Shown one piece after another: positions 11,220 to 26,319 of a stretch of DNA of 64,000 bases (within the stretch, counting starts at the first letter, position 1; every line of letters starts with the position of its first letter). The stretch lies in the NCBI RefSeq assembly GCF_004322395.1, contig NZ_SCTW01000015.1, positions 1-64,000 on the forward strand, in the 5' to 3' direction. The position numbers were made by a program, and so were the translations under genes. The notes under the pieces are model-generated. The model saw only the letters and a program-made list of their open reading frames with translations, searched no databases and was not told the DNA's origin. This DNA comes from Methylobacter sp. Its GTDB lineage: Bacteria; Pseudomonadota; Gammaproteobacteria; Methylococcales; Methylomonadaceae.

Positions 11220-12632
11220 ATGAGTACAGATACAAAAACCGAACTAGATGAAATCGCTATTTATGTTCAAAAAGCGCGTAGTGCCCAAAAAGAAATTGCG
11301 GATTACACTCAAGATCAAGTTGATGAGCTGGTAACAGCAGTATGCTGGGCTATCGTCCGTCAGGATCGCGCAGAAGAATTAGCGAAACTGGCTGTTGATG
11401 AAGGCGGTTTCGGCAATTACAACGATAAAGTGAGTAAGATCCGTAACCGATGCATGGGAACCCTGCGCGATATGCAGACAGTGAAAACGGTCGGAGTTGT
11501 GGAAGAAATCCCCGAAAAAGGCTTAGTTAAAATCGCCAAACCGGTCGGCGTGATTGCTGCGCTTATTCCTACGACAGGCCCTGACGCGACACCGCCTTTA
11601 AAAACGCTGCTGGCCTTGAAAGGCCGAAATGCCATCATAGTAGCCGCTCATCCCCGGACGCAAAAAACCACCGAACTCACCGTAAAGTATATGCGCGAAG
11701 CCTGCGAACAGGTAGGAGCTCCGGCGGATTTGGTTCAGGTTATTGAAAAACCCTCACTTCCGAAAACCCAAAAATTGATGCAGCAAGCGGACTTGATTGT
11801 AGCAACCGGCGGCGCCGCAATGGTAAAAGCGGCATACAGTTCCGGAACGCCCGCTTATGGCGTTGGAGTTGGTAATTCAGTTCATGTGATCGATGAAACG
11901 GCCGATCTGGATGATGCCGCCAATACCATTGTGACGGCCAAGAAATTCGATTATGCGACCAGTTGTCTGGCTGATAATTCGGTTGTAGCTCATGAGTCGA
12001 TTTATGACGACTTAAGCGGACGTCTGAAAGAACTGGGCGCTTATCTTTGTAGTGCGGATGAAAAAGACAAATTACGACGACTGATGTGGCCGACGCCTGA
12101 AAACCATATTCCTGACGTTAGCGTAATCGCAAAATCGCCGGCCTTTATCGCAAAGTTGGCCGGCTTCAATGTGCCGGAAGATTGCAGTTGTTTAGTCGTG
12201 GAAGAAAACGGCGTGGGCCCTGAGCATCCTTTTTCAGGGGAAAAACTGTCGCCGGTACTAGCGCTATACCAATACGTTGGCGACATTAACAATGCGATAA
12301 ACCAGGTTAACGCTATTACGGACTATCAGGGGCATGGCCACACCTGCGGCATCCATACGGTCAACGACGACCATGCGCTGGCCTTGGCAATGCAAACCAA
12401 GACTGGCAGGGTGATGGTCAACCAGAGTTTGAATGAAGGCGCGGGCAGCCCGCGAAACGGTCTGCCTTATACGCTCAGCCTAAGTTGCGGTACCTGGGGT
12501 GGGAATATAACGACGGAAAATGTCAATGCCCGGCACATGATTAATCTCACCTGGGTTTCCAGGCCGATTCAGCCAAGACCGATTGATGAAAAGAGTCTTT
12601 TTGAAATGCATTGGCAAAAGCACAGTCGTTAA
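11220..12632 (+). CDS. CoA-acylating aldehyde dehydrogenase (EutE/SauS-like)
   Basis: A 470-residue NAD(P)-dependent acylating aldehyde dehydrogenase, related to acetaldehyde dehydrogenase and sulfoacetaldehyde dehydrogenase (SauS). It oxidises an aldehyde to an acyl-CoA. Visible features are the cofactor segment PVGVIAALIPTTGP, LIVATGGAAMV, and the catalytic Cys249 in YATSCLADN. The C-terminal GHTCGIH, MVNQSLNEGAG and SCGTWGGN segments are typical of this subfamily. It is the first gene of the operon. In context the likely substrate is the aldehyde made from hydroxyalkyl-CoM (2-oxoethyl-CoM); acetaldehyde or sulfoacetaldehyde are alternatives. The ribosome site is weak. Confidence 0.88.
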   Translation: MSTDTKTELDEIAIYVQKARSAQKEIADYTQDQVDELVTAVCWAIVRQDRAEELAKLAVDEGGFGNYNDKVSKIRNRCMGTLRDMQTVKTVGVVEEIPEKGLVKIAKPVGVIAALIPTTGPDATPPLKTLLALKGRNAIIVAAHPRTQKTTELTVKYMREACEQVGAPADLVQVIEKPSLPKTQKLMQQADLIVATGGAAMVKAAYSSGTPAYGVGVGNSVHVIDETADLDDAANTIVTAKKFDYATSCLADNSVVAHESIYDDLSGRLKELGAYLCSADEKDKLRRLMWPTPENHIPDVSVIAKSPAFIAKLAGFNVPEDCSCLVVEENGVGPEHPFSGEKLSPVLALYQYVGDINNAINQVNAITDYQGHGHTCGIHTVNDDHALALAMQTKTGRVMVNQSLNEGAGSPRNGLPYTLSLSCGTWGGNITTENVNARHMINLTWVSRPIQPRPIDEKSLFEMHWQKHSR

Positions 12633-12696
12633 GTTGTTAAAAACTTGTTTTAAGTTACAGCGTTTTCAAATTCAGTTAGTTACTAAAGGCGTGACG

Positions 12697-12740
12697 GGAG
12701 TGCAAGCTTTGCTTGCCAGCGCAGGCGAAGCCTGCACTCC
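12697..12740. repeat. Long imperfect palindrome between the first two operon genes
   Basis: GGAGTGCAAGCTTTGCTTGC is followed by a near-complementary arm ending GCCTGCACTCC, about 20-bp arms with mismatches that can form G-U pairs. There is no T run. It resembles an interspersed palindromic unit, or an RNA hairpin that stabilises or attenuates the message between the dehydrogenase gene and the rest of the operon. Confidence 0.6.
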
Positions 12741-12844
12741 AGCGACAGTGACGACGACATAGCCATTTAACTGTGTAATTAATTTAAATTGAAATCACTA
12801 TAAGTGACTTGTAATAGAAATATCTAAATAGAGGTCTTGAGCAA

Positions 12845-13069
12845 ATGCCGGTTTATCTAATCAGATGCGATAAATGCGATCATCAATTTAAAAGCTTGGT
12901 TTTGGCTAATACTCAAGAGCCCAAAGAATGGGTGTGTTCCCAATGCGGCAGCCATGAAGCAAAACCGACTCATGTCTATGACGATCCGCATCCACTGGAA
13001 AACGACCATGGCGCAGGCTGTCCGTGTTGCAGCGGGATAAGCGGAATATTTAAAACACAAGTCAATTAA
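12845..13069 (+). CDS. FmdB-type small zinc-ribbon protein
   Basis: A 74-residue protein with an N-terminal zinc ribbon of the FmdB/CxxC_CxxC_SSSS type: CDKC at residues 8-11 and CSQC near residue 31. A second cysteine cluster CPCC lies near residue 60. AGAGGT precedes the ATG. Such proteins are found beside amide, sulfonate and C1 genes with unclear roles. Here it directly precedes the zinc-dependent epoxide:CoM transferase, so help with metal supply or regulation is possible but unproven. Confidence 0.8.
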   Translation: MPVYLIRCDKCDHQFKSLVLANTQEPKEWVCSQCGSHEAKPTHVYDDPHPLENDHGAGCPCCSGISGIFKTQVN

Positions 13070-13070
13070 T

Positions 13071-13132: not shown

Positions 13133-13172
13133 AAAAACCGAAAACAAAAAACTATAAATTAGGAGGTGCAGC

Positions 13173-14276
13173 ATGAATAAGGTACTGATTCCAACAAGTA
13201 TGGTAGGCAATTATCCCAATCCAAGATGGTGGGATGCAAAATTTGCAAGACATTTCAAGGGTGACCGGCAGCCGCCGGATGCTATGTGGCGGGAAGCGCT
13301 GGAAGACGCTATGGCGGCCATCGTGACCGATCAAGTCAATGCCGGCCTGGATATTATCGCGGACGGACGGTTACACGGCGATAACTATGCCGACGCTGCA
13401 CTTTATTATTATTTTAATCGCTTAGGTTATGACCTTTCCGGTAGCCATCTCGGTTTTCCGATCTACAGCCGATTGCATTCCGCCACGGTTACGCAGGAAA
13501 TCAAACGCCGCGGACAAATCATGGTCGAACAAGCCCGCGCTCTCAAACGGGCGACTGATAAACCGGTCAAAGTTCAATACACCGGTATTCAGGTGCTGGC
13601 GCAATGCACCAATGACCTACATTATTCTAACAGCCGCGATCGCGCGATGGCCCTTGCCGCTGCTATTAATGAAGATATTTTGGCGGTTGACGAATTGGGT
13701 GTTGAGTATATCCAGCTTGACGAATTTACCTGGCCTTATTTTTACGAAGATTGGGCAATCGAAGCGTTCAACCGCGCCGTTGCAGGCGTTAAAAACGCCA
13801 AGATCGTTTGCCATATCTGTTGGGGAAATTGGGGCGGCACGCCGGCTTATTATCCCGATGATAGCGTAGGCGCCGGTGAGGTTTTCGATTTAACAAAACG
13901 CGCCCAAGACGCTAAAAGCCCGAATCCGACAGCATCGGTGGTGCCTAAGTCTTATGAGGCAAAAATCGATGTCTTTAACATTGAAGGCATCGGCCGCATG
14001 TCGTTTGACGAATCGGGACTTGAACTGCTCAAGACTCATCCAATACCCAAAAATATGATGTTCTGGGCGGGCGTTATCGATGTCAAAAGCACAGTCACCG
14101 AAACGGCAGAGCAAGTTGCGGACAAAATCCGCAGTTTATTAACTGTGGTTCCCGCCGATCAGCTCGGTGTCACTACGGATTGCGGATTGATACTGTTACA
14201 GCGTTATATCGCCCAGGATAAGCTTCACGCCATGGTTGAAGGCGCAAAAATCGTCCGTAAAGAATTAGGTCAATAA
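13173..14276 (+). CDS. xecA: Epoxyalkane:coenzyme M transferase (XecA/EtnE type)
   Basis: A 367-residue protein of the cobalamin-independent methionine synthase (MetE C-terminal) fold; XecA of Xanthobacter is about 377 residues. It opens epoxides with the thiolate of CoM to give 2-hydroxyalkyl-CoM. The zinc ligands are present: His214 and Cys216 in CHICWGNWGG, and Cys337 in TTDCGL. The tryptophan-rich N-terminus (NPRWWDAKF) also fits. AGGAGGTG precedes the ATG. A MetE role is unlikely: the N-terminal half is absent and every neighbour belongs to CoM biochemistry. It should be the entry enzyme for epoxides. Confidence 0.92.
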   Translation: MNKVLIPTSMVGNYPNPRWWDAKFARHFKGDRQPPDAMWREALEDAMAAIVTDQVNAGLDIIADGRLHGDNYADAALYYYFNRLGYDLSGSHLGFPIYSRLHSATVTQEIKRRGQIMVEQARALKRATDKPVKVQYTGIQVLAQCTNDLHYSNSRDRAMALAAAINEDILAVDELGVEYIQLDEFTWPYFYEDWAIEAFNRAVAGVKNAKIVCHICWGNWGGTPAYYPDDSVGAGEVFDLTKRAQDAKSPNPTASVVPKSYEAKIDVFNIEGIGRMSFDESGLELLKTHPIPKNMMFWAGVIDVKSTVTETAEQVADKIRSLLTVVPADQLGVTTDCGLILLQRYIAQDKLHAMVEGAKIVRKELGQ

Positions 14277-14294
14277 ATTAACTAAAGGTGTGTT

Positions 14295-15062
14295 ATGTCG
14301 GGAAAATTACAAAATAAAACGGCTGTTATTACTGGAGCAGCCAAAGGGATCGGTTTTGAGACTGCGCGATTATTCGGAAAAGAAGGCGCGAAAGTCACCA
14401 TTATGGATATTGACGAACAAAGCGCGATTGAAGCCGCAAAAAAACTATGCGATGAAGGCATTGAAGCCTATGCCTTTCAATTGGATGTGACGAACGCGGA
14501 AAGCGTAGAAAAAACCTTCCAAAAAGCGATAGCGAATTATTCAGGCGTGTTGAACATTTTGGTCAATAACGCAGGCATCGCGGATTTCGGTACTGTAGAA
14601 AATACCTCTTTGGATGTTTGGAACCGCATTATGGCGGTCAATTTAAACGGTACGTTTTTTTGTTCCAAGGCTGCGATACCGAGCATGAAAGAGCATGGCG
14701 GCTCGATTGTCAATTTCGGTTCGGTTGCCGGAGTGGTCGGCATTCCGGGGATGGCGGCCTATTGTGCAGCAAAAGCCGCGGTTGTCGGCCTGACTAAACA
14801 AATGGCAGCGGATTATTCTGCGCAAGGTATCCGAACCAACTGCGTCTGTCCCGGCACTATAGCCAGTACTGCGCTCGGGCAACAACTGCTCGGTAGCGAT
14901 ACCTCTGAAGAAACCCAGAAAAAACGTTTAGCGAAATATCCTATAGGGCGTTTCGGTGAGCCGGTCGAGATTGCAGAAGCCGTATTGTTTTTAGCCTCCG
15001 ACCAAGCCAGTTTTGTCAGCGGCGCGGCTTTCAACGTCGATGGCGGCATGACGGCGATTTAA
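14295..15062 (+). CDS. 2-hydroxyalkyl-CoM dehydrogenase, SDR family (XecE-like)
   Basis: A 255-residue short-chain dehydrogenase with the glycine-rich GAAKGIG motif, NNAG, and catalytic Ser143, Tyr156 and Lys160. Family knowledge: the S-specific hydroxypropyl-CoM dehydrogenase of Xanthobacter binds the CoM sulfonate through Arg211 and Lys214. Here residues 211 and 214 are Arg and Lys (KKRLAKYP). The residue three before the catalytic Tyr, Arg152 in the R-specific enzyme, is Met. So this copy looks XecE-like. It oxidises hydroxyalkyl-CoM to the oxo compound with NAD+. It lies 18 bp after xecA. Confidence 0.85.
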   Translation: MSGKLQNKTAVITGAAKGIGFETARLFGKEGAKVTIMDIDEQSAIEAAKKLCDEGIEAYAFQLDVTNAESVEKTFQKAIANYSGVLNILVNNAGIADFGTVENTSLDVWNRIMAVNLNGTFFCSKAAIPSMKEHGGSIVNFGSVAGVVGIPGMAAYCAAKAAVVGLTKQMAADYSAQGIRTNCVCPGTIASTALGQQLLGSDTSEETQKKRLAKYPIGRFGEPVEIAEAVLFLASDQASFVSGAAFNVDGGMTAI

Positions 15063-15090
15063 AGGTCAATCCAAATAGCAATAACACTAA

Positions 15091-16656
15091 ATGGCAACTG
15101 CAATGGATATTTGGGGAGACTACTTTACTATCGCAAAGTGGCAAGACTTTGTGGCCGGGGCGCTGGAATCCGGCAGTAGTTATCCTGTTTTCAACATAAA
15201 CCCAAACGACGCCCGCGAATTTGACGCTATTTATCTGGGCGGCGGAGCCGCCGGACGCTTTGGTGCGGCTTATTTGCGGGCGCTTGGCGGGCGCGTGCTG
15301 ATTATCGATCGCTGGCCATTCCTGGGCGGCTCCTGCCCTCATCAAGCCTGCGTGCCTCACCATCTGTTTTCGGATTGCGCGGCGCAACTGATGCTGGAGC
15401 GCACTTTTTCCGGCAAGCTCTGGTTTCAAGATCTCAACGACAAAATGGTTTCTATCAAGGCCATCGTTGAACTGTTTCGCAGCGGCAGGACAGGCCCCCA
15501 TGCGATGATGAACTATCAAAGCAAAGAACAGCTCGGCCTGGAATTTGTATTGAATGCAGAAGCCAAGATCATCGATGCCCACACGATACAAGTCAATGAC
15601 AGCCAATTCCATGCCAAAAACCTGGTGCTGGCACTGGGAGCGAAACCGGTAGTGCCGGATGTTCCGGGCATTCAGTTAAAAGGCGTATTCAATTCCCAGA
15701 GTCTGGTTGAAAAATTGGACTATGAGCCGGGCAACACCGCTGTAGTTATCGGTGGCGGGAAAACGGCAATCGAATACGGCTGCTTTTTTAATGCCACGGG
15801 GCGACGCACTATTGTTGTTGCCAGACATCAAGCGATGCCGATGCTTAAAGATGCCGAATCCCGCGCTTACGCGATCAAAATGATGGAAGAACAGGGTATG
15901 GAGTTTCTGGAAAACGCGGAATTATCGGTTATTCACGGGGATGCGCAAGGCAAGGTGAAGACGGTCTCTATAAAAACTTCCGATGGCATCATCGATATCG
16001 ATACCGATTTTATTTTTATCGCGATTGGCGAGCAGGCCAATTCGGAGCAGGCCGCCCAAACATTGGGGCTGGAATTGGACGATAAAAGCGCCATCAAAGT
16101 AAATCGACGTATGCAAACCTCACTAGCCAATGTTTATGCAGTCGGCGATGTGACCGGGCCGCCGATGGAAATGTTTAAAGCCAGGAAGGAAGGCGTATGC
16201 GCCGCTAAAAATATCATGGGCCAAGTGAGCGAATATAAAGCGGCCGATTACCCTGATTTTATGCATACGCATTACGAGATCTGTTGGCTGGGGCTAAGCG
16301 AAGCACAAGCGCGTGAGCGCTATGCCAATGTAAAAATCATGAAATTACCGCCCGATAATCCCAACGGTCTCGATGTCGGCTTGCCGGCAGGCGACCGGAT
16401 GATGCTGTACTTGATGGCGAAGCCGCGGATGTCGGGCTTTCAAAAGCTGATTATCGATGGCGACACACGAAAAATAGTCGGCGCTATCCATATCGGTTAT
16501 GGCGCTAAGGACGGTTTTCAATACCTCAACTATCTGGTTAAAAATGGGGTAACGATAGATGACTTAGCCGATATGGACGAATTGTTTATCAGTCCCAGTT
16601 ATTTCATTCAATTGTGCCGCTTACGTGCCGGCGATATTCATTTTAATGACATGTAG
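15091..16656 (+). CDS. xecC: 2-ketopropyl-CoM oxidoreductase/carboxylase homologue (XecC type), His506-to-Tyr variant
   Basis: A 521-residue disulfide oxidoreductase flavoprotein; Xanthobacter XecC is 523. The redox pair is Cys82/Cys87 in CPHQAC, with His84 between them as in XecC and unlike lipoamide dehydrogenase. The CoM-binding arginines Arg56 and Arg365 fall at the same numbers, and Met140 is also kept. Near the C-terminus the XecC-type Phe is kept (DELF, residue 499), but the position of catalytic His506 is Tyr504 (SPSYF). The enzyme should cleave the thioether of an oxoalkyl-CoM by NADPH-driven reduction. The His loss suggests changed handling of the enolate, perhaps protonation rather than carboxylation. 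Confidence 0.9.
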   Translation: MATAMDIWGDYFTIAKWQDFVAGALESGSSYPVFNINPNDAREFDAIYLGGGAAGRFGAAYLRALGGRVLIIDRWPFLGGSCPHQACVPHHLFSDCAAQLMLERTFSGKLWFQDLNDKMVSIKAIVELFRSGRTGPHAMMNYQSKEQLGLEFVLNAEAKIIDAHTIQVNDSQFHAKNLVLALGAKPVVPDVPGIQLKGVFNSQSLVEKLDYEPGNTAVVIGGGKTAIEYGCFFNATGRRTIVVARHQAMPMLKDAESRAYAIKMMEEQGMEFLENAELSVIHGDAQGKVKTVSIKTSDGIIDIDTDFIFIAIGEQANSEQAAQTLGLELDDKSAIKVNRRMQTSLANVYAVGDVTGPPMEMFKARKEGVCAAKNIMGQVSEYKAADYPDFMHTHYEICWLGLSEAQARERYANVKIMKLPPDNPNGLDVGLPAGDRMMLYLMAKPRMSGFQKLIIDGDTRKIVGAIHIGYGAKDGFQYLNYLVKNGVTIDDLADMDELFISPSYFIQLCRLRAGDIHFNDM

Positions 16657-16666: not shown

Positions 16667-17434
16667 ATGATGAATCGATTTCAAGGAAAACAGGCCGTTA
16701 TAACCGGCGGCGCTACCGGCATGGGTTATGACATAGCCAGACGTCTTGGCATGGAAGGGGCTTCGCTTGCGATATTGGACATTAACGAGGCCGCATTATC
16801 GGATGCAACCCAAGCTCTTCGTGCCAATGGCATCGTTGTCAAAGCTTATCAAGTTGACGTCTCCGACCCTCGCGAAGTGGCTGAAACCTTCTCTGGACTG
16901 ATTGCAGACTGTTCCGGCACGCTCGATATTTTGATTAACAATGCCGGTATTGTCGATTTCGGTACCGTTGAAACCACTGAATTCGATTCTTGGAATAAGG
17001 TCATGGCAGTCAATTTGAACGGCACGTATCTGTGTTCGAAGTTCGCATTGCCGGCAATGAAACAACAAGGCGGAACCATCGTTAACTTCGCCTCGGTGAC
17101 GGGGATGGTAGGTATTCCCAATATGGCCGCTTATTGCACGTCCAAAGCCGCGGTCATAGGTTTGACCAAACAAATGGCGGTTGACTATTCAAAGCTGGGC
17201 ATACGTGTCAACTGCATTTGCCCAGGCATGATTGCCGATACCCCCATGGGACGGCGAATTCTCGGAACTGACGAATCCGAGCAGTTGATGAAGTTACGAC
17301 TCAGTAAATATCCGATCGGGCGATTCGGTAAATCCGAAGAAATCGTCGCGGCGGTGTTGTTTTTGGCTTCCGACGAAGCCAGTTTTGTCTGCGGCTCCGC
17401 ATTTACTGTAGACGGCGCGATGACAGCTATTTAA
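16667..17434 (+). CDS. Second 2-hydroxyalkyl-CoM dehydrogenase, SDR family
   Basis: A 255-residue short-chain dehydrogenase, clearly paralogous to the one at 14295. Start taken at the ATG at 16667 (or the adjacent 16670), which aligns its numbering with the first copy; the longer frame overlaps xecC and has no ribosome site. It has GGATGMG, NNAG, and Ser143, Tyr156 and Lys160, and it also carries Arg211 and Lys214 (KLRLSKYP). Both SDRs are therefore of the S-enzyme-like type. The second copy may act on a different chain length or enantiomer, or may be redundant. Confidence 0.85.
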   Translation: MMNRFQGKQAVITGGATGMGYDIARRLGMEGASLAILDINEAALSDATQALRANGIVVKAYQVDVSDPREVAETFSGLIADCSGTLDILINNAGIVDFGTVETTEFDSWNKVMAVNLNGTYLCSKFALPAMKQQGGTIVNFASVTGMVGIPNMAAYCTSKAAVIGLTKQMAVDYSKLGIRVNCICPGMIADTPMGRRILGTDESEQLMKLRLSKYPIGRFGKSEEIVAAVLFLASDEASFVCGSAFTVDGAMTAI

Positions 17435-17445: not shown

Positions 17446-18366
17446 ATGTATACACAAAACGATAAACGATGTTCATTAACTGAACTCGTTGCACACATAC
17501 AAAACGGCGATTGTTTGGCTATTGGCGGTGGCTTATCCTGGCGCGAACCGATGGCGGCTTTGCGGGAACTGATCCGGCAAAACATTAAAGACCTTAAACT
17601 GGTCGGTTCGGCACACGGCATCGATGTCGATTTGTTGTGCGGTGCCGGAAGCGTTGCCGTCAGTGCCGAATCCTATGTCGGCTTTGAGCAAGATTTCGGC
17701 ATGGCGCTGAACTACCGTCGAGCCTGCGAAACGGGTGCCGTGAAAGTGGAAGATAACTGCTGTTACTCCTTAGTTCAGCAACTTCGGGCAGCGATTCAAG
17801 GCTTGCCTTTTATGCCGATCCGCTCGGTGCAAGGGACGGATTTTCTTAAGCTGCACCCTGAATTTAAAACGATGACCTGTCCTTTTACCGGCGAACAACT
17901 GGTTTTAGTGCCTGCGCTCAAACCCGATGTCGCGCTTATTCATGCCCACTATGCCGACGAGCATGGCAATTTGCATATTGAAGGGCCGCCGGTGGCCGAC
18001 GTTCTTTTTGCCAAGGCATCCAAAAAAGTCATCGCTACGGTTGAAGCTTTAATCCCTCATGATGAATTGGCAAAAAAAGGCGTAACGATTCCGTATTTTT
18101 ATGTCACCGCCATTTGCGAAGTTCCCTACGGCGCTCACCCGACTTCCTGCTACCCGAATTATGCTTATGACCGGGAACATACGGCCTCTTATTACCAAGC
18201 CGCCAAACACGGCGCGGACAGTTTTAATCAAAACTACCTGACGCCTTTTGTTCACGACTGCAAAGATCATGACGCTTATCTCTTAGCCGTCGGCGGCAAA
18301 GCCAGACTGGCTTGTTTGGAGCAGTGGGATCAGAGCATGGAAAAATGGATGCAACTTTATGAATAA
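17446..18366 (+). CDS. CoA-transferase family protein, alpha subunit (GctA-like)
   Basis: A 306-residue class I CoA-transferase alpha subunit, closest in appearance to glutaconate CoA-transferase A. Features are the N-terminal GDCLAIGGGLSWREP, SYVGFEQDFG, and PDVALIHAHYADEHGN segments. The next gene, overlapping by 8 bp, is the beta subunit, so the pair forms one enzyme. Possible jobs are moving CoA to or from an acid formed in the pathway, or, if the active-site glutamate is truly lost (see the beta subunit), hydrolytic chemistry as in IpdAB. Confidence 0.82.
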   Translation: MYTQNDKRCSLTELVAHIQNGDCLAIGGGLSWREPMAALRELIRQNIKDLKLVGSAHGIDVDLLCGAGSVAVSAESYVGFEQDFGMALNYRRACETGAVKVEDNCCYSLVQQLRAAIQGLPFMPIRSVQGTDFLKLHPEFKTMTCPFTGEQLVLVPALKPDVALIHAHYADEHGNLHIEGPPVADVLFAKASKKVIATVEALIPHDELAKKGVTIPYFYVTAICEVPYGAHPTSCYPNYAYDREHTASYYQAAKHGADSFNQNYLTPFVHDCKDHDAYLLAVGGKARLACLEQWDQSMEKWMQLYE

Positions 18367-19222
18367 TCAAAATAAGATTCAAACGTGTACACTCGGCGAA
18401 TTGATGATTTACCAGATCGCACTGTCGATAGAAGACGGGATTTTAGCGTTTCACGGTTTCGGGTCGCCTCTGGTGCAGTTAGCGTTGCATCTGGCAAAAC
18501 GCAATCATGCGCCCAATTTGGTGTTGGTCGCAGGTGCGACGTATGGCATCAATCCGACCCCGGCATTTTTAACGCCAACGACCAACGACTTCGCGATGAA
18601 CCGCGATGCCGAGTGTCATTTAACGATTGAAGAACTTTTTGACCTTGCTGCGAGCGGACGATTAGGCCGGATGTTTTTGTCGGGTTTGCAAATTGACCGT
18701 TGGGGCAATATGAATGTCACCCGCTTGGGAAACGATGAGCGGATATCGTTAAAACTGCCCGGCGGAGGCGGGGGCTGTAATTTATCCGCCGATGCCGATC
18801 ATGTAACTATCTGGACGGCGGCGCATCGCACCCATGCCGACGAACATGGCCGCCGCCGTTATCGCTTGGCTAATCGTTGCGATTTTATCACCAGTGTAGG
18901 ACATCGCACCGCGGAAGGCTTGCCGCGTGCCGGTATGCCTTATCGCGGAAGCGGGCCGGATTGCATAGTGACTGATTTAGGGGTATTCGGTTTTAATCAG
19001 GAAGGTCATGTGCAATTACGCGCCCTTTACCCGGATACCAGTGTCGAAATGATTGCTGAAAGCACGGAATTCGATTTGCCTGTTGCCGCTGATCTGTCGA
19101 CAGCCGCTTTGCCCGAGCCCGAAATGATCGAGTTTATCCGCCGTCTGGACCCGCTAAAAATCCATCAGCGGGAACTCAGTTCAGCCGATCGTGGACGCTT
19201 TTTTCAATTGAAAGAGGCATGA
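18359..19222 (+). CDS. CoA-transferase family protein, beta subunit (GctB-like)
   Basis: A 287-residue partner of the alpha subunit. It has the glycine-rich LPGGGGGCNLSADADHV segment and the C-terminal TDLGVFGFN typical of GctB-like subunits. In glutaconate CoA-transferase the catalytic Glu sits in a FEAG motif. The matching place here reads LVAGATYG, which puts Val57 where Glu is expected. My alignment is by eye. If correct, this is not a standard CoA-transferase. Translationally coupled to the alpha gene. Confidence 0.8.
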   Translation: MNNQNKIQTCTLGELMIYQIALSIEDGILAFHGFGSPLVQLALHLAKRNHAPNLVLVAGATYGINPTPAFLTPTTNDFAMNRDAECHLTIEELFDLAASGRLGRMFLSGLQIDRWGNMNVTRLGNDERISLKLPGGGGGCNLSADADHVTIWTAAHRTHADEHGRRRYRLANRCDFITSVGHRTAEGLPRAGMPYRGSGPDCIVTDLGVFGFNQEGHVQLRALYPDTSVEMIAESTEFDLPVAADLSTAALPEPEMIEFIRRLDPLKIHQRELSSADRGRFFQLKEA

Positions 19223-19225: not shown

Positions 19226-20140
19226 ATGAATGGCGAAATTCTACAGGTCGGGACTTTAAAGCAGCAGATTAACTTCGTACCTTTGCCGTACCGTTGCGTG
19301 AGCTTCCAACCTTATGAAGGCGAAATGGATGCCGCCGTGATAACGCAGTATCTGCTGGACCGGGAAGTCTATCGGCGCACCGACATTATCATTTTGCATA
19401 ATTCCCGTCAGGAATATGCCGTTGCCGCCGTGCAACGCACAAGCTCCGAAACCTTATTTTGTCCTTTAGAAAAGGTAGAAGTGCTGGCGTTGCCGGATGA
19501 TTGCGTTTTTATTGAAAATCCCGATACAGACCCGGCCAATCGCTCTGCACTGGCTAAACTAGCGGTTGATCGAGGCGTTACCTCCGAACAAACCGCAATT
19601 GTGCAGGGTAGCTTTGACCACATCAATATTATCCATCGGCCTAAGCCTTTTGTTTTGCGTGTTGTTGAGGTCGTGCCGCCGTCTCCGCCCAAACTGTTTC
19701 ATTTAGTGGAACACGTACTCAGTTACGCTGATTTACCGCCGGTAATTGTAGAACTGGTCGCTATTGATTTACGCGATCTTGCTAAGGAAGCAACGCCGGA
19801 GGCTTTTCTGGTGCCCTGCCGGTCAGGTGGGCTGGATAAGCTGTCCGCACCGGTTTATTTCCTGGATGAAAGGCCGAAACAACGCGAGAACTGGACCCTG
19901 ATCGGTTGTGAACGCAGCCTTCAATTTCATCAGCATTACTATGGCGACGTTCCACCGCGCATAGAAATGTGTCCCCGCCAACTCGTTAAAGATGACGGAA
20001 AGACAACCCTTTTAAAATGCTGTCTTCTTGAATTCGATATAGAGCAAAACGGTCATTTAATGACGGTGCCTTGGGGTTCCGACTTGGCAATGATAGAAAA
20101 GGCATTACAGCAATTATTAAGGGATAAAACTTATGAGTGA
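19226..20140 (+). CDS. Unknown protein in the CoM biosynthesis block (position of xcbA)
   Basis: A 304-residue soluble protein I do not recognise. It starts 4 bp after the CoA-transferase beta gene and overlaps the ComA-like gene by 8 bp. Conserved-looking segments include IIILHNSRQEYAVAAVQR, VVEVVPPSPPKLFHLVEH, VPCRSGGLD, and LIGCERSLQFHQHYYG. There is no signal peptide or membrane segment. It immediately precedes homologues of xcbB, C, D and E in order, so it occupies the place xcbA1 would hold. It may supply a missing step (decarboxylation, thiolation or reduction) or a substrate-handling role. Confidence 0.7.
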   Translation: MNGEILQVGTLKQQINFVPLPYRCVSFQPYEGEMDAAVITQYLLDREVYRRTDIIILHNSRQEYAVAAVQRTSSETLFCPLEKVEVLALPDDCVFIENPDTDPANRSALAKLAVDRGVTSEQTAIVQGSFDHINIIHRPKPFVLRVVEVVPPSPPKLFHLVEHVLSYADLPPVIVELVAIDLRDLAKEATPEAFLVPCRSGGLDKLSAPVYFLDERPKQRENWTLIGCERSLQFHQHYYGDVPPRIEMCPRQLVKDDGKTTLLKCCLLEFDIEQNGHLMTVPWGSDLAMIEKALQQLLRDKTYE

Positions 20141-21008
20141 ATTGGCATGGGAAAATATTATCACCGGCATTCGCAATTCCAGGGAAGTCAAACCGCGTAA
20201 AACCGGAACCACGATGGTTATGGATGTCGGCAAAGGCATCAGTGAAACGCTGAGTATTTTGCAAACGACCTCAAACTATATCGATTTGTGGAAATTTGGT
20301 TTCGGCACCTCGGTTTTTCTGGAAAAAACCTTATTACAGGAAAAACTGAAATTACTGGAAAGCTACGATGTGCTGACTTTTCCGGGAGGAACCTTATTAG
20401 AGGTGGCTTTATTGCAGCATCATTGCCGCGTTTTTATGACGCATGCGAAATCCTTAGGCTTCACTGCGGTGGAAATTTCCGACGGCACCATACCTCTGCC
20501 CGCATTCAGACGAAAAAAAGTCATTGAGTGCGCTTTGAATGCAGGGCTGATTCCGATTACCGAAGTGGGTAAAAAAGACCCGAAACGGCAGCCTACCACC
20601 GAACAAATTGCCGAAGAAGCACTGCAGGACCTGGAGTGGGGAGCGGCATGGGTCATCATTGAAGGCAGGGAAAGCGGACAGGGAGTCGGTATTTTCGACG
20701 AAGCCGGAAAAGTCGAAGAATCTTATATCGACCGTATTGTTGAAATTATGGGCTCCCAAGTCAATGCGTTGATTTGGGAAGCGCCGCTAAAAAATCAACA
20801 AGCCTACCTGATAGAAAAGTTCGGAGGAAACGCCGGATTAGGCAATATTTGCCCGGATCAGGTATTGGCCGTGGAAGCTTTGCGGAATGGATTGCGCTTC
20901 GATACCTTGGACCGAGTCAGTTCGCAGTTGATGCGCAGAGGGGATTGGGACCCCAACCAAACTGAGCAGGACTGTAACGCGGCCGTCCAATTAACAGGGA
21001 AAAGCTAA
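20133..21008 (+). CDS. xcbB: Phosphosulfolactate synthase (ComA/XcbB1)
   Basis: A 291-residue homologue of archaeal ComA and Xanthobacter XcbB1, which add sulfite to phosphoenolpyruvate to make phosphosulfolactate, the first step of CoM synthesis. Typical segments are YIDLWKFGFGTS, VEISDGTIPLP, WVIIEGRESGQGVGIFDE, and LIWEAPLKNQQ. The length fits the family's TIM-barrel enzyme. Its start overlaps the unknown gene before it by 8 bp, and its stop overlaps the next start (TAATG). This is the clearest single marker that the operon makes CoM. Confidence 0.93.
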   Translation: MSELAWENIITGIRNSREVKPRKTGTTMVMDVGKGISETLSILQTTSNYIDLWKFGFGTSVFLEKTLLQEKLKLLESYDVLTFPGGTLLEVALLQHHCRVFMTHAKSLGFTAVEISDGTIPLPAFRRKKVIECALNAGLIPITEVGKKDPKRQPTTEQIAEEALQDLEWGAAWVIIEGRESGQGVGIFDEAGKVEESYIDRIVEIMGSQVNALIWEAPLKNQQAYLIEKFGGNAGLGNICPDQVLAVEALRNGLRFDTLDRVSSQLMRRGDWDPNQTEQDCNAAVQLTGKS

Positions 21009-22519
21009 TGTCGGAAGAAGTCGCGGGAGCAATTCAGAAACAAGTGTTGGAAATAGGCACTCGATTAACATCGTCTCCTTCGGAGTGTTTGATCGAATCC
21101 GCTTTCGCCTGGGAGCTGAGTCATCAACAACACTTGTTTGAAGCTGTTGGCTTAGTGGATCTGGCTCACACCATCAGTACGATGGAACTGGGAACCATTC
21201 CCCGGCAACAAGGCATTGAATTACTGCGTTTCTTACTGGCTCTGCAAGATAAACCCGATTCTTTCAAGGCAATACCCGCAGGCGGCGATATCTATACCAA
21301 TCGTGAAGCCTGGCTGGCGGAAAGAACCGGTGCCGTAAAATGGCTAGGTGCCGGACGCGCCCGGCGTGAAGCTATTACCTCGGCCTTCGTTTTAGATGTC
21401 AGGCAAAGGCTACTGACGCTGTCGGAAACCCTGATAATGCTGGCTGAAACGTTCATTAACCGGGCGGAGAACGATAAAAATACGCTGATGCCGGATTATA
21501 CCTATCTGCAAGCCGCGCAGCCGACGACATTCGGGCACTACTTATTGGGCTTTACCTATCCTTTACTAAGAGATTTGGCACGGCTTGATTGCCTGCTGGA
21601 AAAAGTGAATCGCAGTCCAATGGGCTGCGGCAGCACAAACGGTTCGCGTTTGCCGCAAGGGCGCGAGCAATTAGCTGAATTATTAGGCTTTGCCGATATT
21701 ATTCCGCATGCGCGGGATGCGATGTGGCAAGCCGACTTAAGCATAGAAAATAGCGCCCTATTGACGGCTTGTATCGTTAACCTCAGCCGTTTAGCGGAAG
21801 ACCTGCAAATTTTCAGCACCCAGGAGTTTGCGTTGGTTGAATTGGACGATCAACATGCTCGGGCCAGCAAAATCATGCCGCAGAAAAAAAATCCGTTTGC
21901 TTTAACCCACATACGAGCCATCGCCAATAAGATGATCGGCCTGACGGCTTCGGTTTGCGCGTCGGCTAGAACGCCCTCCGGCCAACCGGATAACCGTTTG
22001 ATGATTTACGGGGAATTGCCGGAGGGTATGCAACTGGTTGAGCAGGCGGCGGCGCTGATGTCCGAAACGCTGCAACGGCTTAGTTTCAAGTCGGATAGAG
22101 CGTATGCCCTGATTGGCTCAGGATGGGCTTTAGCGACGGATTTGGCCGAGGCGCTGGTGCAGTATTGCGACCTTGATTTTCGCAGTGCGCATCAGTTAGT
22201 GGCGAGTCTGGTCAGGGAATATCCGGCCCATAGTGATTTGAAAATGGATGCCGACGCGGTCATGCGCATGAGCGAAAAAGTGCTGGGTAAAACGATTAGC
22301 CTGACCGATGCACAACTTAAGTCGGCATTAACGCCCGAGGAAGCGATTCAGCAGCGAAAAGAAGCCGGAGGCACGGCAAGCGCCAGCCTGGATGCCATGT
22401 TGGCCGATTGCCGTCAGCAACTGAATATGTTTCGGGAAAAAAACCAAGCCAATAAAACTTTTTTTGAAAATAAACGCCACAGTTTATTGCAGCGCTCAGA
22501 GAGCTACATAAGAACATGA
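21008..22519 (+). CDS. xcbC: Aspartase/fumarase-family lyase, XcbC1-like phosphosulfolactate lyase
   Basis: A 503-residue member of the aspartase/fumarase superfamily resembling argininosuccinate lyase. The signature loop near residues 287-297 reads ASKIMPQKKNP, where normal members have GSSxMPxKxNP, so one signature serine is Lys. Published work on Xanthobacter XcbC1 shows a superfamily member that eliminates phosphate from phosphosulfolactate to give sulfoacrylate. Gene order directly after comA supports this role here. Assignment as argH is rejected because of the context and the altered loop. Which lyase (this or the next) is C and which is D rests on gene order. Confidence 0.82.
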   Translation: MSEEVAGAIQKQVLEIGTRLTSSPSECLIESAFAWELSHQQHLFEAVGLVDLAHTISTMELGTIPRQQGIELLRFLLALQDKPDSFKAIPAGGDIYTNREAWLAERTGAVKWLGAGRARREAITSAFVLDVRQRLLTLSETLIMLAETFINRAENDKNTLMPDYTYLQAAQPTTFGHYLLGFTYPLLRDLARLDCLLEKVNRSPMGCGSTNGSRLPQGREQLAELLGFADIIPHARDAMWQADLSIENSALLTACIVNLSRLAEDLQIFSTQEFALVELDDQHARASKIMPQKKNPFALTHIRAIANKMIGLTASVCASARTPSGQPDNRLMIYGELPEGMQLVEQAAALMSETLQRLSFKSDRAYALIGSGWALATDLAEALVQYCDLDFRSAHQLVASLVREYPAHSDLKMDADAVMRMSEKVLGKTISLTDAQLKSALTPEEAIQQRKEAGGTASASLDAMLADCRQQLNMFREKNQANKTFFENKRHSLLQRSESYIRT

Positions 22520-23883
22520 GTGATTCAGTCCATATCAGTGATTCTGAAATTTACGGCGTATCCTGGACAACACCGGAGCTTCGCGGTCTTTTCTCAGAGC
22601 AAAACCGGATTAAAGGCTGGCTGGAAGTCATGACCGTGCTTGCCGGCGTACAGGCCGATTTCGGTTTAATTCCAAAACAGGCCGCCCTCGAAATTGAAAC
22701 CTTTTATAACCATCTTTCAATCGATGAGACTTTTTTAAAAGATATTGGCGAAGATTTTATCAAGACCAATCACTCTCTGTTGGGGCTCATCAATGCCGTA
22801 AAACAAAGGTGCGGCCCGCTGGGCGGAGAATGGCTTTGTTATGGCGCAACCGTACAAGACATAACGGATACGCATATTGTCCGTGTGCTGATGTCAGTCA
22901 GGCAATTATTTGCCGAGCAACTTACCGAATTGGAAAAAGTCCTTAAAACGCTGGCTATTGAGCACCGTTTGACGCCCATGTGCGGCCGCACGCACGGACA
23001 GCCCGGATTGCCTATTACCTTTGGATTTAAAGCGGCCGGTTGGCTGGATGAATTCGATCGGCACCGGTTGAGACTGAATGAATTAAAAACTCGCCTGGGA
23101 GTCGGGCAATTATGCGGAGGAGTCGGTAGCTTATCGTCGCTAGGTTCTAATCCCCTGGAATTACAGGCGGCGTTCATGCAACGGCTGGGGCTGGAAGCGC
23201 CGGCGATTTCCTGGACCAGTAGCCGGGACCGCTTGGCCGAATGGTTAAATGTTCTGGCAATGATAACCGCAACGGGTGATCGCATAGGGCAGGAAGTATT
23301 CAATTTGCAGCGTCCTGAAATAGCCGAGTTAAGTGAGGGTTTTATCCCCGGAGCCGTCGGCAGTATTACCATGCCGCATAAACGAAACCCTGAAATATCG
23401 GAACATCTAGGCACTTTGTCCAGAGTCGTCAGGCATCATGCCGCCCATATGGCTGAAAGTTTGGTGCATAGCCATGAACGCGACGGCCGAGCCTGGAAAA
23501 GCGAGTGGGCCATTATCCCCGATGCAACCTTAGCCGCTGGAAAGTCGCTGATGCTGCTTAAATCACTGATCGAAGGATTACAAATTAATGCTGAGCGAAT
23601 GCTGCAAAATATTGAGGCAATGAAAGGCTTTATTCATGCTGAAAAAGTGATGTTGGCTTTGGCAGAGAAAATCGGCAAGCAAAGTGCCCATAAGCTGGTT
23701 TATGACATTGCCATGCAGAGTCAAGAACAGAATATGCCACTGAAGCAGGCCTTGATGCAGAACAGCCAAATTGCTTCGCTACTGAGCGAAGATGAAATTA
23801 ACAGCTTATTCGATCTGGATAAAAGCGTCGGATGCTGTGCGGAAATGATTGATCAAGTAATTGCCCGGATTAATTTGCCATGA
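22516..23883 (+). CDS. xcbD: Aspartase/fumarase-family lyase, XcbD1-like
   Basis: A 455-residue superfamily member of the adenylosuccinate lyase / carboxymuconate cycloisomerase type. It has the signature GSITMPHKRNPE near residue 281, a CGRTHGQPG histidine motif, and the N-terminal segment YGVSWTTPELRGLFSEQNR. It overlaps the previous stop by 4 bp (ATGA) and the next start by 4 bp. In Xanthobacter the CoM operon also has two such lyases in tandem. Its step follows phosphate elimination; the exact reaction cannot be told from the sequence. A purB role is unlikely in this context. Confidence 0.82.
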   Translation: MSDSVHISDSEIYGVSWTTPELRGLFSEQNRIKGWLEVMTVLAGVQADFGLIPKQAALEIETFYNHLSIDETFLKDIGEDFIKTNHSLLGLINAVKQRCGPLGGEWLCYGATVQDITDTHIVRVLMSVRQLFAEQLTELEKVLKTLAIEHRLTPMCGRTHGQPGLPITFGFKAAGWLDEFDRHRLRLNELKTRLGVGQLCGGVGSLSSLGSNPLELQAAFMQRLGLEAPAISWTSSRDRLAEWLNVLAMITATGDRIGQEVFNLQRPEIAELSEGFIPGAVGSITMPHKRNPEISEHLGTLSRVVRHHAAHMAESLVHSHERDGRAWKSEWAIIPDATLAAGKSLMLLKSLIEGLQINAERMLQNIEAMKGFIHAEKVMLALAEKIGKQSAHKLVYDIAMQSQEQNMPLKQALMQNSQIASLLSEDEINSLFDLDKSVGCCAEMIDQVIARINLP

Positions 23884-24935
23884 ACAACAAATCACTAGAG
23901 CTTCAACGAAAAAATACCATTGAGACAATAAGCGCTCAAATACCCAGGCACAGTCTTGCTCAATATCCGACTCCGCTAAGACCCGCCAAACAGCTTTCCG
24001 AATATTTGTCCGGACCGGAACTTTGGTTTAAACGGGACGATTTAATCAGTTTTGGTTTTGGAGGCAATAAAATCAGGGGCCTGGAAGTCATGCTGGCGGA
24101 TGCGTTGGCACAGGGGGCCGATACACTGATTACCGGCGCCGGAGTGCAATCCAATCATGTCCGGGCCACGGCCGCCACGGCAGCTTATGCCGGACTGCGT
24201 TGCATTGCGGTCTATTGGGGCAATCAACCCGCTCAAGTGGACGGCAATTACAGGCTGACCAAATTATTAAATGCGGAATTCCGTTTTACACAAAGCGATG
24301 ACAGAGACTCTGTTGATGCGATGATCAATGCTGTCGCGGAAGTACAGCGATGGAATGATGTCAAACCTTACGCAATACCGCGTGGCGGAGCTTGTGCTAT
24401 GGGGGTTTTGGGTCATGTCTTGGCTGTTTTCGAGCTTTATCAACAATGCCTGAGTCAAGGTGTAGAACCCGATGCGATCGTACTGGCAGTAGGTTCCGGC
24501 GGAACCTATGCGGGTTGGCTGCTGGGCATCAGGCTGTTGAATCTGCCCTGGAAAATGCTCTGCTACACCGTCAGCCGGGAGCCGGAACAGGTCAGTCAGC
24601 AAGTTGCCGATTTGGCTACCCAAGCCGCAGCCTTATTGAAACTGGATTGGACTTTTTGCGCCGAAGATACGCCCGTCTTTGGCGGCTTTATCGGACAAGG
24701 TTATGGCATCCCAAGCCCGGAAGCAGCCGAAGCGATCAAGCAAATCGGCCGTAGCGAAGGCATTTTGCTTGATCCTGTCTATACCGGTAAAGCAATGGCC
24801 GGATTCCTGCACGGGCTGCGAAACAAACAGTTTGAACAACACAAAAAAATAATTTTTGTGCATACCGGCGGCGAACCGGCATTTTTTGCCGGAAACGGCG
24901 ATTGGTTGAATTCCAGTCCAACCGCTGAACAATAA
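23880..24935 (+). CDS. xcbE: PLP enzyme of the D-cysteine desulfhydrase/ACC deaminase family, XcbE1-like
   Basis: A 351-residue fold-type II pyridoxal-phosphate enzyme. The cofactor lysine is Lys64 in GFGGNKIRGLE, followed by GAGVQSNHVRATAA and the phosphate-binding VGSGGTYAGWL. XcbE1 of Xanthobacter is a D-cysteine desulfhydrase homologue in the CoM operon, where a PLP enzyme is implicated in putting the thiol on the C2 sulfonate. The start overlaps the previous stop by 4 bp. The alternative, simple D-cysteine breakdown, fits the neighbourhood less well. Confidence 0.85.
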   Translation: MNNKSLELQRKNTIETISAQIPRHSLAQYPTPLRPAKQLSEYLSGPELWFKRDDLISFGFGGNKIRGLEVMLADALAQGADTLITGAGVQSNHVRATAATAAYAGLRCIAVYWGNQPAQVDGNYRLTKLLNAEFRFTQSDDRDSVDAMINAVAEVQRWNDVKPYAIPRGGACAMGVLGHVLAVFELYQQCLSQGVEPDAIVLAVGSGGTYAGWLLGIRLLNLPWKMLCYTVSREPEQVSQQVADLATQAAALLKLDWTFCAEDTPVFGGFIGQGYGIPSPEAAEAIKQIGRSEGILLDPVYTGKAMAGFLHGLRNKQFEQHKKIIFVHTGGEPAFFAGNGDWLNSSPTAEQ

Positions 24936-24951
24936 CGAATTAGGGGAATAT

Positions 24952-26319
24952 ATGAGAATCATCGTCATAGGCGGTGTCGCAGCGGGCACAAAAGCAGCGG
25001 CAAAAGCGCATCGGGTTGATCCGAATAATGAAATCATCCTTTACCAGGATGAATCCGAAGTGTCCTACTCCGCTTGCGGATTGCCTTATGTTATTAGCGG
25101 TGTAATCGCCGATGAACGAAAAGTCATCATCAGGCAGCCTGAAGATTTTGCCAAGGACGGTATCCAGGTTTTTATACGGCACCGCGTGCTTGGCATCGAT
25201 ACTGGCAAACAGCAACTCACCGTAAGGAATCTGCAAAACAATACGGATTTTATCGTTAGCTATGATCGATTGATTATTGCAACCGGCGCTCGTCCAATAG
25301 TGCCGAATATTGAAGGAATAACATTGGAAGGCGTTTTGACCTTGCGCAATATCGCTGATCTGGCACGATTCAAAACATTGTTAAGCACAGTGCAGCCGCA
25401 AAAGGCCGTCATTATAGGCGCCGGGTATATCGGCTTGGAACTGGCCGAGACTTTCCATGAGCTAAATATAACAACCACCATCATCGAAAAGGCCCCCCGT
25501 ATTTTGCCGAAATCCGATCCGGAAATGGCTCAACTCGTACATGACCATTTGCTGGAAAACCAGGTTGAAATAATACTTGGCGACGGTTTAGCCAAACTTG
25601 ACGGCAACAATGGCCGAGTGACTTCCGTGGAGACGGAATGCGGAAAAATAATACCTGCCGATCTCGTTGTGATCGCCATTGGTGCAAAACCTAATGTGGA
25701 ACTGGCAAAAGAGGCCGACATTGAACTCGGGATCACCGGAGCCATTGCTGTTGATTCAAGAATGGAAACCAACATACCGGGCATTTACGCCGCCGGTGAT
25801 TGTTGTGAAACAGTCAACCGGATAACAGGTGCAACAACATGGATGCCTTTGGGCGATATCGCCAATTTACAAGGCCGTGTTGCAGGGGAAAACGTTGCGG
25901 GGGGCGACGCCCATTTCCCCGGCGTTTTTGGAACGGCAATATTCAAGACCTTTAAATTGACAGTCGCAATGACCGGTTTATCTGAGCAATCCGCGCTGGA
26001 ATCGGGGCTTGATCCCATTTCGATTAAAACGGAAGGAAGCGACCGAGCTCGGTATTATCCCGGTAAACAAGATTTTTCCTTAAAACTCATCGCCGATCGG
26101 AAAGATGGCAGACTATTGGGCGCTCAAGCGATTGGTCTTGGGAGTGTCGATAAAATGATCGATATCGCAGCTACCGCATTACTGGGTAAGCTGACTTGCT
26201 CTGATCTTGAAAACGCAGACCTCGCTTACTCGCCACCCTTCAGTCCGGTGCTATCGCCAATCATCGTAGCGGCCGGTGTCTTACACAGTAAATTGAGCAA
26301 ATTAAGTTTAACCGGCTAA
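24952..26319 (+). CDS. CoA-disulfide reductase/NADH oxidase-type flavoprotein
   Basis: A 455-residue pyridine-nucleotide disulfide oxidoreductase of the single-cysteine type. It has an FAD site at the N-terminus (IGGVAAGTKAAAKA), redox Cys42 in YSACGLPY, an NAD site IGAGYIGLELAE, and the second FAD motif YAAGDC. Relatives reduce CoA disulfide, persulfides, or oxygen. It lies 17 bp after the xcbE-like gene and closes the operon. A thiol-reducing role, either the last reduction in CoM synthesis or keeping CoM reduced, is a reasonable inference. Confidence 0.85.
   Translation: MRIIVIGGVAAGTKAAAKAHRVDPNNEIILYQDESEVSYSACGLPYVISGVIADERKVIIRQPEDFAKDGIQVFIRHRVLGIDTGKQQLTVRNLQNNTDFIVSYDRLIIATGARPIVPNIEGITLEGVLTLRNIADLARFKTLLSTVQPQKAVIIGAGYIGLELAETFHELNITTTIIEKAPRILPKSDPEMAQLVHDHLLENQVEIILGDGLAKLDGNNGRVTSVETECGKIIPADLVVIAIGAKPNVELAKEADIELGITGAIAVDSRMETNIPGIYAAGDCCETVNRITGATTWMPLGDIANLQGRVAGENVAGGDAHFPGVFGTAIFKTFKLTVAMTGLSEQSALESGLDPISIKTEGSDRARYYPGKQDFSLKLIADRKDGRLLGAQAIGLGSVDKMIDIAATALLGKLTCSDLENADLAYSPPFSPVLSPIIVAAGVLHSKLSKLSLTG

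Follow-up and report, generated by a model that had tools for sequence, protein, structure and literature searches.

A coenzyme M and epoxide gene cluster in a Methylobacter genome and the variant active site of its XecC homologue

Gene content of the cluster and its host

The first 64,000 nucleotides of contig NZ_SCTW01000015.1 of Methylobacter sp. (RefSeq assembly GCF_004322395.1), hereafter called the window, carry a cluster of genes predicted to make coenzyme M (CoM) and to use it on epoxides. CoM has long been tied to methanogens and a few alkene users. The list of open reading frames (ORFs) contains the 13 codirectional genes at 11220–26319 that an initial annotation, made from the sequence alone, had described; the gene families it named are correct by profile and homology matches, and the identities are well above chance. 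It had overlooked two further members, a sigma-54 activator and a small zinc-ribbon ORF, with which the cluster comes to 15 same-strand genes at 9229–26319 (Table 1). It had also left unnamed the gene for XcbA and the two CoA-transferase-fold subunits at 17446–19222. From the regulator onward, the intergenic distances are 80, 540, 18, 28, 1, 11, −8, 3, −8, −1, −4, −4, and 16 bases, computed with a start of SDR2 at 16658; the zinc-ribbon ORF fills part of the gap of 540 bases upstream of xecA.

Table 1. Genes of the cluster, with the evidence for each assignment
Product	Position	Strand	Evidence
GAF/sigma-54 activator/Fis-type helix-turn-helix regulator	9229..11139	+	Pfam; neighbour also in L009 (92%) and L010 (91%)
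CoA-acylating aldehyde dehydrogenase (ALDH), SauS-like	11220..12632	+	NF047625 524.7 bits, cut-off 600
74-aa FmdB-type zinc-ribbon protein	12845..13069	+	Pfam Zn_ribbon_8 35.6 bits, cut-off 34.4
XecA/EtnE, epoxyalkane:CoM transferase	13173..14276	+	71% to Xanthobacter Py2 enzyme
SDR1, S-HPCDH-type hydroxyalkyl-CoM dehydrogenase	14295..15062	+	Top PDB match 4gh5/4itu
XecC-type (2-KPCC homologue) disulfide oxidoreductase	15091..16656	+	693 bits to solved 2-KPCC 1mo9
SDR2, S-HPCDH-type dehydrogenase	16667..17434	+	Top PDB match 4gh5/4itu; start codon assumed, ORF opens 16625
Class I CoA-transferase-fold subunit A	17446..18366	+	Pfam CoA_trans 92.3 bits
Class I CoA-transferase-fold subunit B (CtB)	18359..19222	+	Nearest solved 5n00/5mzw, 1poi
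XcbA family (DUF7714), CoM biosynthesis	19226..20140	+	NF052538 494 bits, cut-off 150
ComA/XcbB phosphosulfolactate synthase	20133..21008	+	TIGR03849 305 bits, cut-off 280
XcbC	21008..22519	+	NF052535 733.5 bits, cut-off 575
XcbD	22516..23883	+	NF052536 719.4 bits, cut-off 600
XcbE pyridoxal-phosphate enzyme	23880..24935	+	NF052537 542.9 bits, cut-off 450
CoA-disulfide-reductase-like flavoprotein	24952..26319	+	TIGR03385 431.4 bits, cut-off 578.8

All five CoM-synthesis proteins, XcbA to XcbE, exceed their NCBIfam cut-offs. Cysteines 198, 228, 249, 265, and 266 of XcbA are invariant in 40 rows; its AlphaFold2 model (pLDDT 93.2, pTM 0.88) has no PDB match at E ≤ 0.001 in Foldseek, and TM-scores of 0.09–0.22 to the query length among the 50 matches listed give no functional hint. 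XecA has His214, Cys216, and Cys337, presumably zinc ligands, as do all 58 rows of its alignment. The two short-chain dehydrogenases/reductases (SDRs) are 60% identical to each other, and their top PDB match is a structure that we take to be S-2-hydroxypropyl-CoM dehydrogenase (S-HPCDH). The Arg211/Lys214 pair, which we assume to be the CoM-binding pair of that enzyme, is present in SDR1, and the same R..K motif occurs in SDR2. Over 173 aa, SDR1 and SDR2 are 66% and 57% identical to Xaut_5050, presumably the S-type dehydrogenase, and 36% and 38% identical to Xaut_5049, presumably the R-type. An SDR between xecA and xecC occurs, besides the window, only in strain wino1 among the loci compared. 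The ALDH keeps Cys249 (31 of 31 rows) and is 70% identical to the Nocardioides JS614 homologue. Its best profile is that of SauS (the AdhE-type model gives 420.7 bits and the EutE-type model 371.9), whose cut-off it does not reach, so that it can be called only SauS-like; we propose it as a 2-oxoethyl-CoM dehydrogenase. The last gene product of the cluster, which stays below the cut-off for CoA-disulfide reductase, is the proposed CoM disulfide reductase. At the level of genes, the set for CoM synthesis and use is complete, as the initial annotation had held.

For the CoA-transferase-fold pair, the nearest solved structures are 5mzw, 1poi, and 6co6/6con (5mzw, 1poi, and 6co6 for subunit A), which we take to be the decarboxylase AibAB, the glutaconate CoA-transferase GctA, and IpdAB, respectively. 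Position 58 of CtB is Ala in 24 of 44 rows, all proteobacterial and including the window, and Glu in the other 20, none of which has a proteobacterial title. This Glu may be the catalytic one of class I CoA-transferases, with the caution that phmmer alignments have a gap there and the alignment is ambiguous; if it is catalytic, the pair found in proteobacteria departs from the standard CoA-transferase. A single-sequence structure prediction of CtB was too poor for use (pLDDT 31.9).

The sigma-54 activator belongs to the cluster, as judged from its being a common neighbour in L009 and L010 (L numbers denote loci and G numbers genomes), and it is the probable activator of the operon. Elsewhere regulators differ: L104, L110, L112, and L114 have a MEDS protein, and in L112 a weaker relative of the sigma-54 activator (39%) adjoins as well. 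A scan for sigma-54 promoters (TGGCAC-N5-TTGCW, at most two mismatches) gives 29 matches in the window versus 39 expected by chance, and the sole site with one mismatch (8915) precedes the regulator, not the operon. Scans for sigma-70 promoters and terminators gave fewer sites than in shuffled sequence.

Two genes of the host genome (4.59 Mb in 157 contigs) match the AMO/PmoA family and are pmoA-type genes; none matches the hydroxylase family of soluble di-iron monooxygenases (SDIMO), whose model can detect the family, since it matches 9 of 43 other genomes searched. These observations, and the genus shared with Candidatus Methylobacter oryzae KRF1, point to a Methylococcales methanotroph and bear out the host type that had been guessed from the sequence. 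The claim that such a cluster had not been described for this group, central to the initial annotation, falls. According to Toppings et al. (2024; PMC11507031), 14 of 150 methanotroph genomes carry etnE within similar clusters, and ethylene raises 11 of 13 proteins of the cluster in Methylohalobius crimeensis. The window fits that published type, as its XecA is 71% identical to the M. crimeensis copy (L104; limit >65%), xcb genes adjoin, and the host has pmoA-type genes. Strain KoM1 of the Figure 2 legend of the same paper is taken to be Methyloglobulus morosus KoM1, whose XecC is 86% identical to that of the window. The cluster is real, well identified, and largely described in kind already; relative to the open-licence literature, the additions are an active-site variant of XecC, the zinc-ribbon companion, a GMC oxidoreductase, clusters in which no XecC was found, and a fusion of XcbA with ComA.

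The fusion bears on the role of the ALDH. In PMC11507031, a sulfoacetaldehyde dehydrogenase without similarity to XcbA is said to be its functional analogue in M. crimeensis, and by extension the SauS-like ALDH would serve CoM synthesis in place of XcbA. Sulfoacetaldehyde is indeed a sulfonate close to CoM chemistry. Yet the window has XcbA beside the ALDH, L005 (Mycolicibacterium NBB4) and L006 (JS614) carry both genes, and Py2 has XcbA–E with no ALDH within 20 kb. In M. crimeensis itself, a 595-aa ORF (L104, 9212–10999, minus strand) is XcbA fused in frame to ComA/XcbB (XcbA_fam 467.9 bits, ComA 296.8). The published assignment hence appears mistaken, and a substitution of XcbA by the ALDH is very unlikely; the ALDH need not replace XcbA and is free for another step.

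A recurrent variant of the XecC active site

Residues of XecC are numbered after 2-ketopropyl-CoM carboxylase (2-KPCC) of Py2, so that Phe499 and Tyr504 of the window are positions 501 and 506. In an alignment of 84 rows (83 relatives and the window; the partial rows L077 and L084, both with His506, were dropped), Cys82, Cys87, Arg56, Arg365, His84, His137, and Phe501 are invariant, and we assume for the conserved catalytic residues the roles they have in 2-KPCC. Position 506 is His in 63 rows, Tyr in 20, and Leu in one. Position 419 is Leu or Ile in all the Tyr506 rows (Leu in the window) and Met in all 64 others, and these two are the only columns, of 523, that split Tyr from non-Tyr rows without overlap (L016 was left out of this analysis and of the C-terminal-domain tree below). 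The Phe-His dyad of 2-KPCC favours carboxylation. With Tyr in place of its His, the xecC-type label of the initial annotation holds by homology to solved 2-KPCC, but a carboxylase label is unsafe, and 2-ketopropyl-CoM carboxylase activity cannot be assumed.

Tyr506 is present in all 17 Methylococcales members in which XecC was found; the remaining Tyr rows are two Methylocystis and L042, a betaproteobacterial metagenome-assembled genome (MAG), so that 19 of 20 come from methanotroph lineages. Its distribution points to repeated change. The tree of full-length proteins, made from 41 of the 84 rows with columns 419 and 506 removed, needs four changes, as it does throughout the 5–95% bootstrap range; M. 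crimeensis has there as its sister a betaproteobacterial MAG that carries His506, and the sister group of Methylocystis is Methylocapsa with USC-alpha, both likewise with His506. A single origin is rejected, the Tyr rows forming one clade in 0% of 200 bootstrap trees. The tree of the C-terminal domain (40 rows) needs three changes, with a bootstrap range of 2–4, and its starred branches force two. Most rows picked for the trees were proteobacterial, with a small number of others added. L042 joins Methylocystis on the C-terminal-domain tree, which hints at recombination in L042. From these trees, Tyr506 had at least two origins and probably three. As a separate observation, the XecC of L065, on a contig labelled Pseudomonadota, lies within an actinobacterial clade, by binning error or transfer.

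A clean association of Tyr506 with methanotrophy must be rejected, as Methylocapsa aurea and a USC-alpha MAG have His506. A copper membrane monooxygenase (CuMMO) is found in 16 of the 20 Tyr506 hosts, window included (it is missing in the Methylococcales MAGs L015, L016, and L039 and in L042), and in 6 of the 24 His506 hosts searched.

One may ask whether Tyr506 and Leu419 have simply drifted neutrally, selection on a detoxification gene being relaxed, and leave the reaction unchanged. The change from His to Tyr takes a single C-to-T substitution, and most of the organisms in which it arose are not known to use alkenes for growth. Position 419 changed with position 506 in four of four independent pairs, for which a sign test gives p = 0.125, four pairs being unable to reach 0.05. 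Against drift stand this joint change, the fact that just two columns separate the groups, and the presence of Tyr in all 16 rows of the main Methylococcales clade, down to about 60% identity with the window. Drift is on balance a doubtful account of the variant.

Companion genes, distribution, and mobility

The zinc-ribbon ORF exceeds the Pfam cut-off and stays below that of the NCBIfam FmdB model (28.7 versus 31.3 bits). A profile search of six-frame ORFs of the loci gives 40 homologues, every one of them in a locus of this pathway; 37 adjoin xecA and 3 are on contigs where xecA is cut off, and Cys 8, 11, 31, and 34 are invariant in all 40. When xecA copies at contig ends are set aside, 35 of 54 have the gene next to them (37 of 58 when they are included), among them the copy on the Py2 plasmid pXAUT01, where the PLSDB table, which is incomplete, lists no gene. 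The same search gives no homologue beside xecA in M. crimeensis or in L025, a relative of it, and none at 8 of the 12 actinobacterial places that are not from Acidimicrobiia or at the 9 that are from Acidimicrobiia and look-alike MAGs; the protein is therefore not needed everywhere. No mention of a zinc ribbon was found among the open-licence papers listed on epoxyalkane:CoM transferase, nor of zinc or FmdB in the portion of PMC11507031 covered.

Among 311 genomes of the order, 17 have XecC (E ≤ 1e-100) and 23 have XecA (E ≤ 1e-90). No XecC was found in six of the XecA-bearing genomes, the least complete being G223 (88%) and G284 (91%). Five of these cases (L109–L113) all keep the ALDH with xecA, and four keep the CoA-transferase-fold pair and XcbA/ComA, L111 having neither within the 20 kb fetched. 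There is no SDR match near xecA in L109, L112, and L113, one SDR in L110, and a 44% match about 2.7 kb beyond xecA in L111. In Methylomicrobium sp. RS1 (L023, taken as G159, whose xecA locus is L114), XecC and an SDR are on another contig than the xecA-xcb cluster. SDR and XecC seem to form a variable module, attached to a core that changes less.

Of 92 sequences compared (the window and 91 loci, the latter limited by contig ends and flanks; E ≤ 1e-8), 17 have a glucose-methanol-choline (GMC) oxidoreductase, 14 from Methylococcales and 3 from alphaproteobacterial methanotroph genera, with no match in the remaining loci; it lies inside the CoM/epoxide cluster, as in L109 (15832–17427). The genome of the window gives no match, in a search without its own positive control, but has a second SDR. 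In L113, both xecA and the GMC gene are in two pieces, broken or misassembled. In other methanotrophs, GMC proteins have been linked with the oxidation of the alcohols 2-propanol and acetol (PMC8630023), from which a GMC protein may be able to oxidise hydroxyalkyl-CoM; the main text of PMC11507031 does not mention them. An acetate-CoA ligase was considered as a general part of the cluster and rejected: at the thresholds used, it occurs in 1 of 23 loci from Methylococcales, in 0 of 4 from alphaproteobacterial methanotrophs, and in 24 of the 64 remaining loci. Contig ends and flanks of 10–20 kb truncate the loci, which makes misses weak evidence here.

A close relative of the locus is that of strain wino1 (NZ_CP024202; titled Methylomicrobium, called Methylotuvimicrobium in PMC12911358), where the same 14 genes follow one another in unchanged order and the zinc-ribbon ORF is present as well. 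The DNA at 9084–26309 is 90.7% identical to it, whereas the left flank differs, 3997 bases matching over only 241 (the right flank was compared over 330 bases). The proteins of the cluster are not uniformly related to their counterparts: the regulator through CtB are 91–97% identical to both wino1 and KRF1, except SDR1, which has no KRF1 counterpart in place, and XcbA to XcbE are 81–95% identical to wino1 and 63–77% to KRF1. The adjoining QueA is 76% identical to wino1 and 87% to KRF1. The cluster has a GC content of 50.2%, compared with 45.4% for the remainder of the window and 48.6% for wino1 (PMC12911358). These contrasts indicate transfer of a mosaic cluster between genera, with the CoM half exchanged as a module of its own. 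In the portion covered, PMC12911358, a 2025 genome paper on this group, mentions neither epoxides, ethylene, etnE, nor phosphosulfolactate.

Other features of the window lie outside the cluster. An ORF that looks by eye like an integrase (5626–7152) starts at a tRNA-Leu (7057–7143), with a type I methylase-like ORF (4550–5578) beyond it, forming an integrated element to the left of queA and away from the operon. Further along are a gene joining a trypsin-like peptidase domain to a DNA/RNA nonspecific endonuclease domain (30825–33308), three adjoining genes on the minus strand (38407–42144) for two FAD-binding proteins and an Fe-S/CCG protein, which we read as a set of glycolate-oxidase type, and an IS110-family transposase (43327–44385).

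Proposed pathway and comparison with known systems

Methanotrophs limit the release of methane, and ethylene in wet soil poisons them through epoxyethane. The cluster probably makes CoM and clears small epoxides, chiefly epoxyethane arising when particulate methane monooxygenase co-oxidises ethylene; the substrates, the order of the steps, and the effect of Tyr506 we infer from the genes. Bacteria with the XcbA–E pathway use phosphoenolpyruvate, sulfite, and another source of sulfur to assemble CoM, as XcbB (ComA), XcbC, XcbD, XcbE, and XcbA would do here. XecA would open the epoxide with CoM to 2-hydroxyethyl-CoM, which one or both SDRs would oxidise to 2-oxoethyl-CoM. This sulfonate-bearing aldehyde may be turned by the SauS-like ALDH into a CoA thioester, whose thioether the XecC homologue would break with NADPH, giving acetyl-CoA and CoM; the CoA-disulfide-reductase-like protein would recycle CoM disulfides. 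The change of the dyad from Phe-His to Phe-Tyr, with Met419 to Leu, may shift the outcome from carboxylation to plain reductive cleavage. The assignment to the ethene type follows from both SDRs being nearer to Xaut_5050 than to Xaut_5049, and is supported by the ALDH, which the loci of JS614 and NBB4 share and of which the Py2 xec locus showed none within 20 kb. The ethylene induction of the related M. crimeensis cluster (PMC11507031) also counts for the clearing of epoxyethane, as do the two pmoA-type genes of the host and its lack of an SDIMO match.

The order of the last two steps may be the reverse, XecC acting on 2-oxoethyl-CoM to give acetaldehyde (or, with CO2, malonate semialdehyde) and the ALDH then making acetyl-CoA. 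The ALDH is related to the acetaldehyde dehydrogenases EutE and AdhE, and 2-oxoethyl-CoM is near 2-ketopropyl-CoM in size, whereas a CoA thioester would be bulky for the 2-KPCC site. On the other hand, the nearest curated ALDH family is SauS, with a sulfonate substrate, by more than 100 bits in the scores above, and genomes in which no XecC was found keep the ALDH, which therefore does not have to depend on XecC for its substrate. We regard this order as unlikely.

Methane monooxygenase also co-oxidises propene, and a route for epoxypropane as in Xanthobacter has to be considered, in which XecC stays a 2-ketopropyl-CoM carboxylase and the CoA-transferase-fold pair activates the acetoacetate formed. 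XecC is 57% identical to 2-KPCC of Py2 and keeps Cys82, Cys87, Arg56, Arg365, His137, and Phe501. But all 17 order members with XecC have Tyr506, the cluster has no SDR near Xaut_5049, it has an acylating ALDH not seen at the Py2 xec locus, and its CtB has Ala where 20 of 44 rows have Glu. The propene route is therefore quite improbable. No joint mention of methanotrophs and 2-ketopropyl-CoM chemistry was found in the open-licence literature.

More tentatively, one can suggest that in methanotrophs the 2-KPCC homologue was repeatedly converted, by His506Tyr and Met419Leu/Ile, from a carboxylase of alkene growth into a noncarboxylating thioether reductase that recovers CoM and acetyl-CoA from epoxyethane, and that the zinc-ribbon protein is an unrecognised partner of XecA, as metal donor or regulator.

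Several observations weigh against the epoxyethane scheme and the role given in it to Tyr506. Phe501, which excludes protons, is unchanged. Tyr506 is not universal in methanotrophs, M. aurea and the USC-alpha MAG keeping His506, and no CuMMO was found in its betaproteobacterial host L042. His506 is retained in JS614 and NBB4, which are taken to be ethene users, and Tyr506 is thus not required for an ethene route. XecA genomes in which no XecC was found imply that XecC is probably not the sole way to release CoM. Finally, the scheme leaves the CoA-transferase-fold pair without an evident place.

If the epoxyethane scheme holds, a mobile CoM cassette that protects methanotrophs would be ecologically relevant and has clear gene markers. 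The repeated change of His506 to Tyr and Met419 to Leu/Ile would amount to a natural swap experiment on the choice of 2-KPCC between CO2 and a proton, and the zinc-ribbon and GMC genes would be two further candidate components of the pathway. The XcbA-ComA fusion would correct the pathway assignment published in PMC11507031.

Among known clusters, that of M. crimeensis shares with the window XecA/EtnE, an S-type SDR, a Tyr506 XecC homologue, the CoA-transferase-fold pair, XcbA–E, the SauS-like ALDH, and the CoA-disulfide-reductase-like gene, and both hosts belong to the same order. It differs in its XecC, which is 58% identical and on the opposite strand, in the fusion of XcbA with ComA, and in having an acetate-CoA-ligase-like gene, a MEDS regulator, a single SDR, and no zinc-ribbon match, where the window has two SDRs, the sigma-54 activator, the zinc-ribbon gene, and no ligase match. 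The comparison with the Py2 xec/xcb and the Nocardioides and Mycolicibacterium etn loci, which the initial annotation had proposed, gives homologues in all of them. The Py2 locus on pXAUT01 resembles the window in XecA (71%), XecC (57%), XcbA–E, and the zinc-ribbon ORF by xecA, but has two SDRs of differing type, His506 with Met419, and neither ALDH nor CoA-transferase pair found within 20 kb. JS614 (L006) and NBB4 (L005) have the ALDH (68–70%), the CoA-transferase pair, XcbA–E, an XecC homologue, and the CoA-disulfide-reductase-like gene. They differ from the window in His506, in the Glu of CtB, and in acetate-CoA-ligase-like genes (L005, L006, and L007), and in NBB4 soluble monooxygenase genes lie beside both loci. 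The only complete xecA examined in the JS614/NBB4 set, that of NBB4 L007, has no zinc ribbon adjoining, in contrast to Py2 and the window.

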